32,378 nucleotides of DNA from Oceanivirga salmonicida (GTDB taxonomy: Bacteria > Fusobacteriota > Fusobacteriia > Fusobacteriales > Leptotrichiaceae), in contig NZ_LOQI01000014.1 of NCBI RefSeq assembly GCF_001517915.1, positions 1-32,378 on the forward strand. Direction: 5' to 3'. The notes beneath the pieces were generated by a model that saw only the letters and a list, made by a program, of their open reading frames with translations, was not told the DNA's origin and ran no database searches. Every line of letters starts with the position of its first letter. Position 1 is the stretch's first letter. The position numbers were made by a program, and so were the translations under genes. Positions 10,556 to 15,607 of the stretch are shown piece by piece.

Positions 10556-11470
10556 ATGAATATATTTAAATTTGACGTTTTAGAATCAACGAATGAATAT
10601 TTGAAAGCCAATAATTCAAAATATGATGAATTTGATATAATTATTGCAGAAAATCAGTCTAAAGGAAAAGCAAGAAATGGAAATAATTGGGTATCAGATA
10701 TAGGTATGGGACTTTTCACTTTTTATATTAATAAAAATTTTAAGTCTGATATTTTGATGAAAATTCCTATTATTTCTGGTTTAGCAGTAATAAAAGCATT
10801 AAATAAAATTGAAAAAAGTGAATACATGTTTAAGTGGACTAATGATATTTATTTGAAAAATAAAAAACTTTGTGGGATTCTTATAGAAAATGTAGATAAT
10901 AAGACTTATATAGGAATAGGAATAAATATAAATAATACTATACCTAATGAGATAGAAAATATAGCAATATCTATGAATGGAGCATTTGGCAAAAAATATA
11001 ATATTGATGAAATTATAAAAACAATAGTGTGTTCTTTTAAAGAATTATTAAATATGTTATTAGATAATAAATTTGATGAAATAATAAAGGAAGTTAATAA
11101 GGTAAATTATCTAAAAAATAAGAAAATAGTTTTTAAAATATCTGAAAAATTAATTAAGGCCAAAATATTAGACATAAATAAAGATGGTTTTATAGAAGCT
11201 ATCGTTAATAATGAAAAAAAAGTTTTCTCTATTGGTGAAATAATACGAGAAAAAAGGATTTTAAATTTAGATTTAGATAATTCATTTGAAATAGTAAAAA
11301 AACTTCAAGAAGATTATGTTGATATAATAGCATATAGTGTTAATAATTATGAAAGAGCAAAAATAATAGCCAAAAAAGCTAAAATTAAACTATATAAAAT
11401 AGAAAACAAAGAAGATTTAGAAAATTTAAAAAGACAATATAATTGTAATGAATATGATTTAGAAAAATAA
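10556..11470 (+). CDS. birA: Biotin-[carboxyl-carrier] protein ligase without HTH, with a C-terminal extension
   Basis: Attaches biotin to the carrier protein through biotinyl-AMP. It begins directly with the catalytic domain (DVLESTNEYLK), so it lacks the DNA-binding domain of enteric BirA. The nucleotide loop GRGRxG is degenerate here (KGKARNG, residues 36-42), but the key arginine (Arg40) and Trp45 remain. WTNDIY near 94-99 and KKLCGIL with the expected active-site Lys104 are intact. The usual C-terminal domain ends at SIGEI near 225-229. Residues from about 231 to 304 form an additional, mostly charged segment I do not recognise. Only three bases separate it from bioY. It is the last gene of the citrate operon. 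Confidence 0.87.
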   Translation: MNIFKFDVLESTNEYLKANNSKYDEFDIIIAENQSKGKARNGNNWVSDIGMGLFTFYINKNFKSDILMKIPIISGLAVIKALNKIEKSEYMFKWTNDIYLKNKKLCGILIENVDNKTYIGIGININNTIPNEIENIAISMNGAFGKKYNIDEIIKTIVCSFKELLNMLLDNKFDEIIKEVNKVNYLKNKKIVFKISEKLIKAKILDINKDGFIEAIVNNEKKVFSIGEIIREKRILNLDLDNSFEIVKKLQEDYVDIIAYSVNNYERAKIIAKKAKIKLYKIENKEDLENLKRQYNCNEYDLEK

Positions 11471-11500
11471 CCCACGGGAGAAAAACTGTGGGTATTTTTA
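11471..11500 (+). terminator. Terminator of the citrate operon
   Basis: CCCACGG (11471-11477) pairs with CTGTGGG (11486-11492), seven pairs including one G-U, and is followed by TATTTTTA. It begins immediately after the birA stop and closes the operon. Confidence 0.85.
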
Positions 11501-11709: not shown

Positions 11710-11739
11710 TTGACATTTAGGGGGGGGGGGGCTTATAAT
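11710..11739 (+). promoter_or_regulatory. Promoter of the surface locus with a poly-G spacer
   Basis: A consensus -35 TTGACA (11710-11715) and a consensus -10 TATAAT (11734-11739) are separated by 18 bp, of which 12 are an uninterrupted G run. Loss of one G would give the optimal 17-bp spacing, and further changes would weaken the promoter. The RBS AAGGAG and ATG at 11783 follow at normal distance. Confidence 0.85.
11720..11731 (+). repeat. Homopolymer tract G12
   Basis: Twelve consecutive G residues in a genome region of roughly 25% G+C, lying exactly between the -35 and -10 boxes. The longest other G run noticed in the window is six. Such tracts slip during replication and are classic phase-variation sites. 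Confidence 0.95.
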
Positions 11740-11782
11740 ATACTTCACGATAATATTATTTTATAAATAAAGGAGAAAAATA

Positions 11783-12853
11783 ATGAGAAAAATAAAATTG
11801 ATATTTGCTTTACTTATTTTTGCAAATTTCGGATTTGCGGATTACAATGATAATCTACACACAATAGAAAATAGGCAATATTTTATCAATATAGAAAATG
11901 CATATGCAAGTATAGGGACACTTCATTCTAGAAAGGGTGAAAATCAGGTGTTAGCATGGGACCATTGCAGAGCTGGAAAATATAAGGGAATGGTTTATGC
12001 AAAAGCTATAGGAAATTTAAAAATTCAAAAATTTTTTCCAGAAAAAGATGAGGAAATTAACAATCTTTCTGGATTAGGTGGAGTACAATTAGGAGTAGAC
12101 TGGGTAAAAAAAACAAAAACAGATGTTCATAACTTATTTGGAGTATATGGATCATATGTAGGCTCAGGAGCTAAAACTATAAGACGTAATGACTATTATA
12201 ATGAGAAATTTAAAGGACATAATGCAATTATAGGTATAAATAATACAACTTATTCTAAATATGGAACATATTTAGATATATTAGCACAATATAGTTTAAA
12301 TATAAATTATAGAGCATCTTTAGGAAGAGATGGGAAAATTAGATATTCTCCTAGATCAAAATTTGATATGCATTCATTTTTTATTTCTGCAGAAGTTGGT
12401 AGACCATTTAATATAAGTAGAAAATGTTGTGAGTTTCAAAAAGGGTGGTTAATCGAACCACAAGCTCAAATTATATATAATTTTACAGTCGGTAAAAAAC
12501 CTGAACAACTTTTAAGATCATTTTCGTATGGAGACAACTATGAAACATATTATATGCATAATTTAAGAGCTAGAGCAGGTTTAAGATTAGCACATAATTC
12601 TGGGACTGATACATTAAATACATATACAATTTATGGCTATACTAATTTATGGGGAGATTATACATATATTCCATCAGAAGATGAATATTATATTCACCAT
12701 GAATTTAAATTATGGACTGAATTAGGTGCAGGTGGACAAATTCCAATAAAAAAAGATATATATGTATATGGAGATGCAGGTATTCAAATTCCTTTACATG
12801 GACAAGGACACACTGGTTTTAAAACTAATTTAGGAATAAAACATAATTTTTAG
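11783..12853 (+). CDS. Outer-membrane beta-barrel protein, autotransporter-domain type, first of a tandem pair
   Basis: A 356-residue exported protein: signal peptide at residues 1-19 ending FGFA, then alternating amphipathic segments of a beta-barrel, ending in Phe (GIKHNF), the usual outer-membrane insertion signal. The pattern GLGGVQLG, NNTTYSKYGTYLDI, EVGRPFNI, IEPQAQIIY, AGLRL and GAGGQIPI resembles autotransporter barrel domains, but there is no passenger; the barrel starts about 20 residues after the signal peptide. It shares the segment IGTLHSRKGENQ near residue 40 and the overall layout with the next gene, so the two are paralogues. Cysteines occur at WDHC and near KCCEF. It is the first gene under the poly-G promoter. 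The specific function (adhesin, porin or other) is not evident. Confidence 0.8.
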   Translation: MRKIKLIFALLIFANFGFADYNDNLHTIENRQYFINIENAYASIGTLHSRKGENQVLAWDHCRAGKYKGMVYAKAIGNLKIQKFFPEKDEEINNLSGLGGVQLGVDWVKKTKTDVHNLFGVYGSYVGSGAKTIRRNDYYNEKFKGHNAIIGINNTTYSKYGTYLDILAQYSLNINYRASLGRDGKIRYSPRSKFDMHSFFISAEVGRPFNISRKCCEFQKGWLIEPQAQIIYNFTVGKKPEQLLRSFSYGDNYETYYMHNLRARAGLRLAHNSGTDTLNTYTIYGYTNLWGDYTYIPSEDEYYIHHEFKLWTELGAGGQIPIKKDIYVYGDAGIQIPLHGQGHTGFKTNLGIKHNF

Positions 12854-12865
12854 AAAGGAGCAAAA

Positions 12866-13924
12866 ATGAAAAAAATAGCATTAGGATTATTAATAATAAC
12901 TAATATTACATTTGCCCTTGAAGTAGATATTATAAAAAATAATGTTAACTTTGATCATGTTTATGCTAATATAGGAACTCTTCATTCAAGAAAGGGTGAA
13001 AATCAAACATTAGCATGGGATGATTGTGGTAAAGCAAAAACAGACAAAATAGTTTGGGGAAAAGCAATTGGAAATTACAATTCTTTAGAAATAAATAACA
13101 AACTTAATAATATAGAAGAATTTGGAACTGGTTTAGGTGGAGTACAATTAGGGTTTGACTATAGATTAAAAACAAAAAGCGAAATTAATAATTTATTTGG
13201 AGTATATGCAACATATACTGGATCTAGAAGTGATTTAAGCACTAAAAAAGCAATAAATAAATATGATAGTAATAATATTAGTATAGCCTTAAATAATACA
13301 ACATATTCTAAATATGGTTCATACATAGATATAGTAGGTCAGTATACTTATACTAATCAAAAATTTAAACATGTTTACACTGCTGATGATATAGCTAATA
13401 TTCCAAAGAGTATTAGAAAATATAAAGAACTGTATTATGGACATAATTTTTCAATGTCAGTTGAAGTTGGAAGACCGTTTAATATAAATCAATCTGGTTG
13501 GTTATTAGAACCGCAAGGACAAATCATATATACATTGTCTGTATCTAAAACTACAAAGTTAGAAGCGGGAGGCTATATGAAAAAATTAGAACCTGCTTTA
13601 TTACATAGTTTAAGGGGGAGAGTAGGATTAAGATTATCAAATAATTCAGGTAGTCATACATTAAACACTAATACAGGGTATGTATATACTAATTTATGGG
13701 TAGATCCACTTAAACATAATTTTTTAAAAGCATTGAACAATTCTAGTTATGTATATAATAATGAAACAAATAATTTTAAATTATTTGGAGAAATTGGTGT
13801 AGGTGGACAAATACCTGTTTTAAAAAATGTGTACTTGTATGGAGATACAAGTTTTAGATTTGGATTTGTAGGTAAAAAATATTATGAATTTAAATCAAAT
13901 TTAGGAATGAAATATAATTTTTAG
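12866..13924 (+). CDS. Outer-membrane beta-barrel protein, autotransporter-domain type, second of a tandem pair
   Basis: A 352-residue paralogue of the preceding gene, with a signal peptide at about 1-17 (ITFALE) and a terminal Phe (GMKYNF). Shared blocks in the same order include IGTLHSRKGENQ, GLGGVQLGFD, NNTTYSKYGSYIDI, VEVGRPFNI, LEPQGQIIYT, GLRLSNNSGSHTLNT and GVGGQIPV. They differ mainly in the segments between strands, which would be the loops. The ribosome-binding region TTTTTAGAAAGGA is almost identical before this gene and the next, as expected after gene duplication. It lies 12 bp downstream of its partner, in the same transcription unit. The whole protein is barrel; no passenger domain is seen. 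Confidence 0.8.
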   Translation: MKKIALGLLIITNITFALEVDIIKNNVNFDHVYANIGTLHSRKGENQTLAWDDCGKAKTDKIVWGKAIGNYNSLEINNKLNNIEEFGTGLGGVQLGFDYRLKTKSEINNLFGVYATYTGSRSDLSTKKAINKYDSNNISIALNNTTYSKYGSYIDIVGQYTYTNQKFKHVYTADDIANIPKSIRKYKELYYGHNFSMSVEVGRPFNINQSGWLLEPQGQIIYTLSVSKTTKLEAGGYMKKLEPALLHSLRGRVGLRLSNNSGSHTLNTNTGYVYTNLWVDPLKHNFLKALNNSSYVYNNETNNFKLFGEIGVGGQIPVLKNVYLYGDTSFRFGFVGKKYYEFKSNLGMKYNF

Positions 13925-13937
13925 AAAGGACTAAAAA

Positions 13938-14522
13938 ATGAAAAAGATAATACTATCAATAAGTTTAATCACTCTTTTATTTTCGTGTACAGGTGTTGGT
14001 AACTATGACATGAATGTAAAACATAGTTGGTGTAATAATAGTTGTGGAGCAGAAAAGGTTGAACAACCAGAAAAAATTAACGTAGTTAAGGAAGAAACAC
14101 CGAAACCAGAAAAAAAAGTACAAAAGAAAAAGGTTGTAATAGCAATAGCAGCAGATGCATTATTTAAATTTGATAAATATCAATTAAAAGATATGTTACC
14201 AGAAGGAAAAGCAAGTATAGAAGAAGCAGCAAGAGTAATAAATGATGAATATACAAGTGTAGATGAAATAAACTTAATAGGACATACAGATAGATTAGGT
14301 AGCGAAAAATATAATCAAATATTAGGATTAAATAGAGCAAAAACAGTTAGAGAATATTTTAAAGTGTTGGGTGTAACAACAAAGATTACAGTAGATAGTA
14401 AGGGTGAAAGTGAACCTGTGGTATTTTGTGAAGGAAGAAAATCTACACCTAAATTAAGAGAATGTTTACAACCAAATAGAAGAGTTATAATAGAATTTAA
14501 CGGAGTAAAAATAGAAAAATAG
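13938..14522 (+). CDS. OmpA-family lipoprotein
   Basis: A 194-residue lipoprotein with lipobox LLFSC (Cys17), a Lys/Glu/Pro-rich linker to about residue 65, then an OmpA-like peptidoglycan-binding domain. The domain shows LFKFDKYQL, LIGHTDRLGSEKYN with Asp118, LNRAKTVREYF, and NRRVIIEF with Arg181/182; these Asp and Arg positions are the ones that bind diaminopimelate in the family. Two cysteines, VFCEGR and LRECLQ, probably form the disulfide seen in many OmpA domains, and two more (WCNNSC) lie near the N-terminus. It likely tethers the outer membrane, and possibly the two barrel proteins encoded before it, to the cell wall. Confidence 0.88.
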   Translation: MKKIILSISLITLLFSCTGVGNYDMNVKHSWCNNSCGAEKVEQPEKINVVKEETPKPEKKVQKKKVVIAIAADALFKFDKYQLKDMLPEGKASIEEAARVINDEYTSVDEINLIGHTDRLGSEKYNQILGLNRAKTVREYFKVLGVTTKITVDSKGESEPVVFCEGRKSTPKLRECLQPNRRVIIEFNGVKIEK

Positions 14523-14569
14523 TAAAAAACTATATTTTCTATCATATTAATTTATAAAGAGGTAAAAAA

Positions 14570-15235
14570 ATGAAAAAAATCTTAGTAATATTATTGCCTT
14601 TAATAAGTATGTTTAGTTTTTCAGAAATATATGATTATGGAAATAATGAAAAAGAAATAGTTGATATTGTTAAAGGTAAAAGACAAGGGAAATCTATTTA
14701 TTATTTTCCTGATGGAACAAAAGAAGAAGCATTTTATATAGATGGAGTGTTACAAGGACAGTCTGTTACATATTACACAAATGGTGATAGAGAAAGAAAT
14801 ACATATGTAGATGGTATAAAAGATGGAGAAGCTACTTATTATTTCTCAGATGGCTCAAGAAAAGAAATGATATATAGTAATGGTGTATTACAGGGTCAAT
14901 CTACTGTATATTATATAAATGGTAATAGAGAAGTTTTCAATTATATAAACGATAAAATAAACGGTAACTATGTTTATTATTTTAATAATGGAAGCAGAGA
15001 AGAATCTACTTATGTAAATAATGTATTACAAGGAGATTATGTTATTTATTATCAAAATGGCGATAAAGAAAAAGGAACTTACATAAACGGTAAAAAACAA
15101 GATAAAAGGGTTTATTATTATGCTTCGGGAGATAGGGAAGAATATAATTATGATGAAAATAAAAAGCAAATATATGGAACTTCTATAATTTATCATATTA
15201 ATGGAGAAAAAGAAGAGATTAGATACGAAAATTAA
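14570..15235 (+). CDS. Secreted MORN-like repeat protein (YwqK-type)
   Basis: A 221-residue protein with a signal peptide at 1-18 (MFSFSE) followed almost entirely by about eight repeats of about 23 residues built on the pattern YY-x-(D/N)G-x-(K/R)E-x-x-Y-x-NG-x-x-x-G. This resembles MORN-type repeats found in proteins annotated as YwqK-family antitoxins; that label carries no clear function here, and no toxin gene is adjacent. The repeats alternate in two flavours, so the true period is about 46 residues, with GVLQGQS recurring. It lies 47 bp after the OmpA-like gene with AGAGG before the ATG. Exported, probably periplasmic or surface-located. Confidence 0.75.
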   Translation: MKKILVILLPLISMFSFSEIYDYGNNEKEIVDIVKGKRQGKSIYYFPDGTKEEAFYIDGVLQGQSVTYYTNGDRERNTYVDGIKDGEATYYFSDGSRKEMIYSNGVLQGQSTVYYINGNREVFNYINDKINGNYVYYFNNGSREESTYVNNVLQGDYVIYYQNGDKEKGTYINGKKQDKRVYYYASGDREEYNYDENKKQIYGTSIIYHINGEKEEIRYEN

Positions 15236-15275: not shown

Positions 15276-15607
15276 ATGGTGAAAATTAATAAAATAACAG
15301 TAAAATTCTTTTTCGTATTTTATTTAATTGGGGTTATAAGTTTTTCTGTAAAAGTCTTTAAATCAGCGCCAAAATATATGTGGAACCAAAATTAGCATTT
15401 GGGTATAATGACCAAAAGATAGTACAAACAAATCTAAAATCAAATGAACATAAGATAAAAAGATCATATGTAGATTATTCATTAAGATTAGGAGCAAAAT
15501 ATAAGTTTATAAATAATGTATCATTAGATGGAGATATAAATGTTAAGGGAGATATGAATAAAAATATCAAAGTTGGAACTCGTATAGGAGTAGCTTATAG
15601 TTGGTAA
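15276..15607 (+). pseudogene. Decayed outer-membrane barrel/autotransporter gene
   Basis: Two out-of-frame pieces of what was probably one gene. ATG 15276 opens a 39-codon frame with a basic start and a hydrophobic core (FFFVFYLIGVISFS) like a signal peptide, stopping at 15393-15395. In another frame, 15362-15607 reads SAKIYVEPKLAFGYN and then barrel-like strands ending in YSW; a GTG at 15380 could serve as a start. The second piece resembles the extreme C-terminus of an autotransporter barrel. A large internal deletion plus a frameshift would explain the arrangement. There is no good ribosome-binding site before GTG 15380, so expression of the 75-residue piece is doubtful. Confidence 0.6.

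Follow-up and report, generated by a model that had tools for sequence, protein, structure and literature searches.

A tract of 12 G between two perfect promoter boxes, upstream of a surface-protein operon of Oceanivirga salmonicida, is very probably the variable element of a phase-variable sigma-70 promoter, where slippage would step the transcription of the operon. The promoter would be part of a set found across the family Leptotrichiaceae. These bacteria probably switch surface proteins randomly up or down by changing the number of G in such tracts. Below, "the window" is the whole stretch of DNA that was analysed (32,378 nucleotides), and coordinates without a contig name refer to it.

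The promoter and its operon

The initial annotation reported a TTGACA box, a spacer of 18 nt containing G12, and a TATAAT box. This reading was exact and both hexamers are perfect: positions 11710-11739 read TTGACA TTTA GGGGGGGGGGGG CT TATAAT (Table 1). Since the assembly is a draft, the count of 12 G at this locus carries an uncertainty of one G either way. Illumina sequencing is reported to read G tracts poorly (PMC9187656). The promoter is the sole 12/12 sigma-70 match on both strands between 8 and 18 kb, and from the upstream terminator to the ATG at 11783 the remaining sites match at 9/12. Given this terminator and the lack of another good promoter before the ATG, the sequence indicates that the four closely spaced genes from 11783 to 15235 are most likely driven from this promoter. 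As in contingency loci of the porA / tp0126 type, a homopolymer of at least 8 lies between a sigma-70 -35 and -10, and the gene driven encodes a surface or outer-membrane protein (the barrel at 11783, then the OmpA lipoprotein). The arrangement is not that of the opc type, where the homopolymer lies over the -35; here, an intact TTGACA stands 4 nt ahead of the tract.

Table 1. Features of the promoter and operon in the window, and G-tract promoters elsewhere in the same genome (given by contig).
Feature	Position	Strand	Remarks
Intrinsic terminator closing the biotin-ligase-like upstream gene	11470..11493	+	8-bp stem, 5 G-C pairs, T-rich tail
-35 box TTGACA	11710..11715	+	perfect
G12 tract, putative slippage element	11720..11731	+	within the 18-nt spacer 11716-11733
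-10 box TATAAT	11734..11739	+	perfect
Predicted transcription start	11746..11747	+	about 7 nt past the -10; predicted from sequence
Ribosome-binding site AAGGAG	11770..11775	+	from sequence
Outer-membrane barrel, 12 strands, autotransporter-translocator type	11783..12853	+	356 aa, signal peptide, no long passenger
Second barrel	12866..13924	+	352 aa, paralogue 47-48% identical
OmpA-family lipoprotein	13938..14522	+	194 aa; Pfam OmpA
MORN-repeat exported protein	14570..15235	+	221 aa; Pfam MORN
Tract promoter TTGACT-18-TATAAT, before CoA-transferase operon (L038)	G000 C58:6391-6402		
Tract promoter TTGACT-17-TATAAT, before DUF285/BspA-like surface protein	C72		
Tract promoter TTGACT-17-TAAAAT	C47		
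Weaker tract promoter GTGACT, before gutM and sorbitol PTS (L036)	G000 C7:126-138		19-21 nt, depending on the -10 chosen

The gene set proposed for the locus (two outer-membrane barrels, an OmpA-like lipoprotein and a MORN-like protein) was matched by Pfam. The autotransporter beta-domain (PF03797) was found in the proteins encoded at 11783 and 12866, with E=2e-18 and 5e-25. The AlphaFold model of the barrel has twelve strands (mean pLDDT 66, pTM 0.71). Its best PDB matches by Foldseek were the translocators of EspP, BrkA and Hbp, with E-values down to 5e-16 (EspP); AIDA-I was matched as well. The window protein has the C-terminal 12-strand translocator barrel of type Va autotransporters and lacks their N-terminal passenger, with about 68 residues, including the signal peptide, before the first strand. 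The nearest relatives detected in the family are type Va autotransporters of about 820 aa, probably from Leptotrichia. Their C-terminal barrel is 30-36% identical to both window proteins over the full barrel, but they carry a passenger domain of roughly 480 residues that the window barrels do not have.

The protein search of the genome contigs returned no relatives of the first barrel. In the family search, relatives of the second were found solely as C-terminal barrels of larger autotransporters (in Leptotrichia, and weakly in a single case in genus g9); the sister genome, from the same genus as the window, had none. The same search found no orthologue of the locus for comparison, and synteny in the sister genome, sought via the biotin-ligase gene, gave no match. 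Directly after the MORN gene, at about 15276-15606, lies the remnant of a small outer-membrane protein, with a signal peptide in one frame and a barrel-like end in another, which looks frameshifted. Elsewhere in the genome, a tandem array holds many MORN-repeat genes related to that of the window (14570-15235; array at G000 C16:10960-18132).

Long G tracts in the genome and in the family

The genome of the window (G000) is a 1.77-Mb draft (1,768,580 bases in 247 contigs) from a genus with two species, and its tracts were counted by pattern searches. The claim that G12 is not expected by chance was borne out: under a first-order Markov model, the window should hold 1.7e-4 runs of at least 12 G, and the whole genome 0.04 runs of at least 11, compared with the 7 observed there. 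All seven of the G/C runs of at least 8 have lengths of 11-14, and there were no runs of 8-10, of which about 4.6 were expected. At least four of the seven tracts are in the position of a promoter spacer. The C47 promoter looks like a second or degraded copy and was not relied on.

Two of the switch-like promoters of this genome precede metabolic operons (CoA-transferase; sorbitol PTS) and not surface-protein genes, which counts against the main reading. The gutM/sorbitol PTS genes (L036) and the CoA-transferase/thiolase cluster (L038) are unusual targets for phase variation. Interrupted spacer tracts, G5AG7 and G5AG4, stand before YadA-like trimeric autotransporter adhesins (G000 C6:34990-35020, L250; C25:7290-7321, L251), and these promoters are possibly locked, formerly variable relatives. 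Several interrupted tracts elsewhere (e.g., G5AG7) are probably fixed, which counts against switching. A G11 tract of another kind is found on the minus strand (G000 C5:8959-8969, L035), where it precedes by 7 nt the ATG start codon for a 32-aa peptide, MGHRRTEISNSTTAPIILLEDEILELLLSINL. The peptide gene adjoins a YcaO gene and ABC transporter genes, in a RiPP-like cluster with poly-G in the ribosome-binding region, and the tract is perhaps a translational switch.

The strict promoter pattern was found in 10 of the 33 Leptotrichiaceae genomes, whereas the reversed control pattern gave 0 in every genome. We also collected tracts of at least nine G in the 33 genomes without reference to promoters. 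Of these 111 tracts, 89 were promoter-like, i.e., had at most 3 mismatches in 12 and a spacer of 15-21, against 19 +/- 4 with shuffled flanks. The census pattern has to begin and end with letters other than G, and some tracts escape it; its counts are therefore lower bounds. Most tracts of the family were in Streptobacillus, the genus of rat-bite fever. The richest genus includes Streptobacillus notomytis AHL 370-1 (L109 and G031:C165 share sequence). One Streptobacillus genome (G030) has 25 poly-G promoters in the census and at least five more, which makes at least 30.

These data bear on the idea that the long G tracts arose as artefacts of sequencing (dark-cycle poly-G) or of assembly, which we regard as highly improbable. 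The genome is indeed a draft of many contigs, in which the C47 and C72 promoters are near contig ends and the C7 tract is near a contig start. Yet the tract of the window lies well away from the ends of its contig, flanked on each side by intact genes, and the -35/-10 register is precise, also where the assembly has one contig the size of a chromosome (G030, G028). Read errors could not place 89 of 111 tracts in promoters.

In the other families of the order, just 2 of 63 genomes had a match; one precedes a chaperone-usher-like operon, the other lipoprotein and MORN genes. At locus L286 (G068 C11:28505), in another family of the same order, the poly-G spacer promoter stands before chaperone-like, subunit-like and 839-aa usher-like genes; with the genes judged by eye, this is possibly a phase-variable pilus. 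The pattern was also found in many genomes of Clostridia, Bacilli, Saccharibacteria and Candidatus Ancillula (L070-L189, among the matches listed). An exported or lipoprotein-like look was given to 64 of the 108 ORFs downstream of those promoters, among the matches listed and without a matched control. With so many matches in Clostridia, Bacilli and Saccharibacteria, poly-G switching of the spacer type may be more widespread than one would expect from the few examples in textbooks.

The genes behind these promoters in Leptotrichiaceae encode largely surface proteins. Among 72 downstream proteins, 23 matched the YadA head and 21 the YadA stalk, and there were further autotransporter matches. 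On clustering, 27 were adhesin-like, 16 belonged to a family of short exported proteins and 5 to one of about 850-870 aa, and there were others. In G030, Sec export was predicted for 25 of the 26 genes with poly-G promoters and for 7 of the 20 behind ordinary perfect promoters (Fisher p=9e-6), where export was called by a simple hydrophobicity rule of our own and not by SignalP. In this genome, most poly-G promoters serve genes for trimeric autotransporter adhesins or for a small outer-membrane family.

Variation of tract length and promoter spacing

Tracts matched by their flanks differ in length. With one genome per species, these differences are between species and between paralogues: G11/G10, G10/G11 and G11/G10 between Streptobacillus genomes, G14/G11 between two genomes of genus g6, and G9/G11 between paralogue copies within one genome. 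A few flank-matched pairs were equal in length (G10/G10). Such variation bears on another reading, that the promoter is constitutive or regulated and its G tract a fixed binding site or structural element, with a length that would matter but would not vary naturally. A fixed site would keep a constant length and register, whereas tracts range from 9 to 14 and spacers from 15 to 21, and they vary also between flank-matched copies. Moreover, the same gene families are served by interrupted and ordinary promoters as well. On the other hand, the poly-G adjoins a conserved TTGACAAAATA-type extension of the -35 in Streptobacillus, and the spacer SD is 1.50 compared to 1.86 for random tract length (p=0.001), although this arises between genera and not within Streptobacillus. 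We consider a fixed element unlikely, and retain the variable promoter as the preferred reading. That the remainder of the spacer compensates for tract length was rejected: the signal came only from pooled data, was absent within Streptobacillus and is not relied on.

The spacers of poly-G promoters range from 15 to 21 with a mode of 19, whereas ordinary promoters in these genomes have a mode of 17 (p=6e-6), and 90 of these 104 TTGACA/TATAAT promoters have a spacer of 16-18. Poly-G promoters being most often at 18-19 nt, either the sequenced tracts are mostly in a reduced state or the optimum is shifted for G spacers. The frequency of 18 and 19 nt would also fit a tract that slips with little effect, spacers of 17-19 nt all working, and a locus that is a neutral repeat. 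This is quite improbable: the tracts are strongly enriched before surface genes, not housekeeping genes, their number is far above chance, and the one-base effects measured in porA and tp0126 argue for selection on expression (PMC3639595, PMC7864442).

MutS was found in all of the 33 family genomes, so its loss is not what makes the tracts variable. Hypermutability via loss of mismatch repair was rejected with respect to MutS. Mononucleotide tracts of Neisseria have a 100- to 1,000-fold higher switching rate in mismatch-repair mutants, and they switch in repair-proficient strains as well (PMC3639595).

The proposed switch and known systems

We infer that slipped-strand mispairing during replication would add or remove one G within a strain, and thereby alter the -35/-10 distance, which is 18 nt now and would be 17 with 11 G and 19 with 13 G. 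The change in distance would then change stepwise the transcription of the operon of barrels, OmpA-type lipoprotein and MORN protein. This locus would be one of a family-wide promoter set, most numerous in Streptobacillus and mostly controlling surface adhesins and outer-membrane proteins. The outcome would be mixed surface phenotypes, with host or immune diversity as the presumed benefit.

How each length would affect transcription is suggested by two known systems. In porA, switching from 11G to 10G or 9G alters transcription (PMC3639595), and tp0126 is best transcribed at a spacing of 17 nt (PMC7864442). By analogy with tp0126, 11 G (17 nt) could plausibly give maximum expression in the window; by analogy with both, expression would peak at 11 G and be intermediate at 12 G (18 nt). 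A more tentative proposal, which we hold to be possible but rather doubtful, is a promoter-type phasome of tens of adhesin and outer-membrane genes with their own poly-G spacers, in Streptobacillus above all, with an optimum at about 18-19 nt and the mode-19 promoters ON. If true, the surface repertoire would be both combinatorial and graded, without any need for frameshifting.

The closest likeness is with porA of Neisseria meningitidis, which also has poly-G (G9-G11) between the -35 and -10 of an outer-membrane protein gene and whose expression is graded (PMC3639595). However, porA is a single Neisseria locus, compared to the at least 30 promoters of one Streptobacillus genome and at least four in that of the window, and the window operon is unrelated to porins. 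The product of tp0126 is an 8-strand OmpW-type protein, in contrast with the 12-strand autotransporter-type barrels of the window. This OmpW homologue of Treponema pallidum is likewise preceded by poly-G between the -35 and -10 (PMC7864442). In Neisseria opc, a homopolymer tract also alters the transcription of an outer-membrane protein, but its poly-C overlaps the -35 (PMC7864442), whereas the tract of the window lies in the spacer. Hence, of the two precedents named in the initial annotation, porA fits and opc is a poor one. The central proposal of that annotation, a phase-variable promoter of a surface locus, was otherwise supported in part, since the architecture recurs far above chance in the genome and the family and precedes exported or surface genes, and flank-matched tracts vary in length.

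The mechanism is already known, and the member is new. Judging by the open-access papers searched, a multi-gene promoter phasome is also new for Leptotrichiaceae: they gave no link between homopolymer phase variation and Streptobacillus, Sneathia, Leptotrichia, Leptotrichiaceae or Fusobacterium, and the genome paper of Sneathia amnii does not mention phase variation. Because most tracts are in promoters, not reading frames, and there are tens of spacer variants per genome, these bacteria offer a natural test of the -35/-10 distance; the tens of variants of a single genome would be well suited to relate this distance to promoter strength. If confirmed, the switch would be an unreported and easily scored way of changing surface antigens in a family with human, rodent and fish pathogens, and antigen-based diagnostics, typing and adhesion studies of Streptobacillus would have to record tract length.
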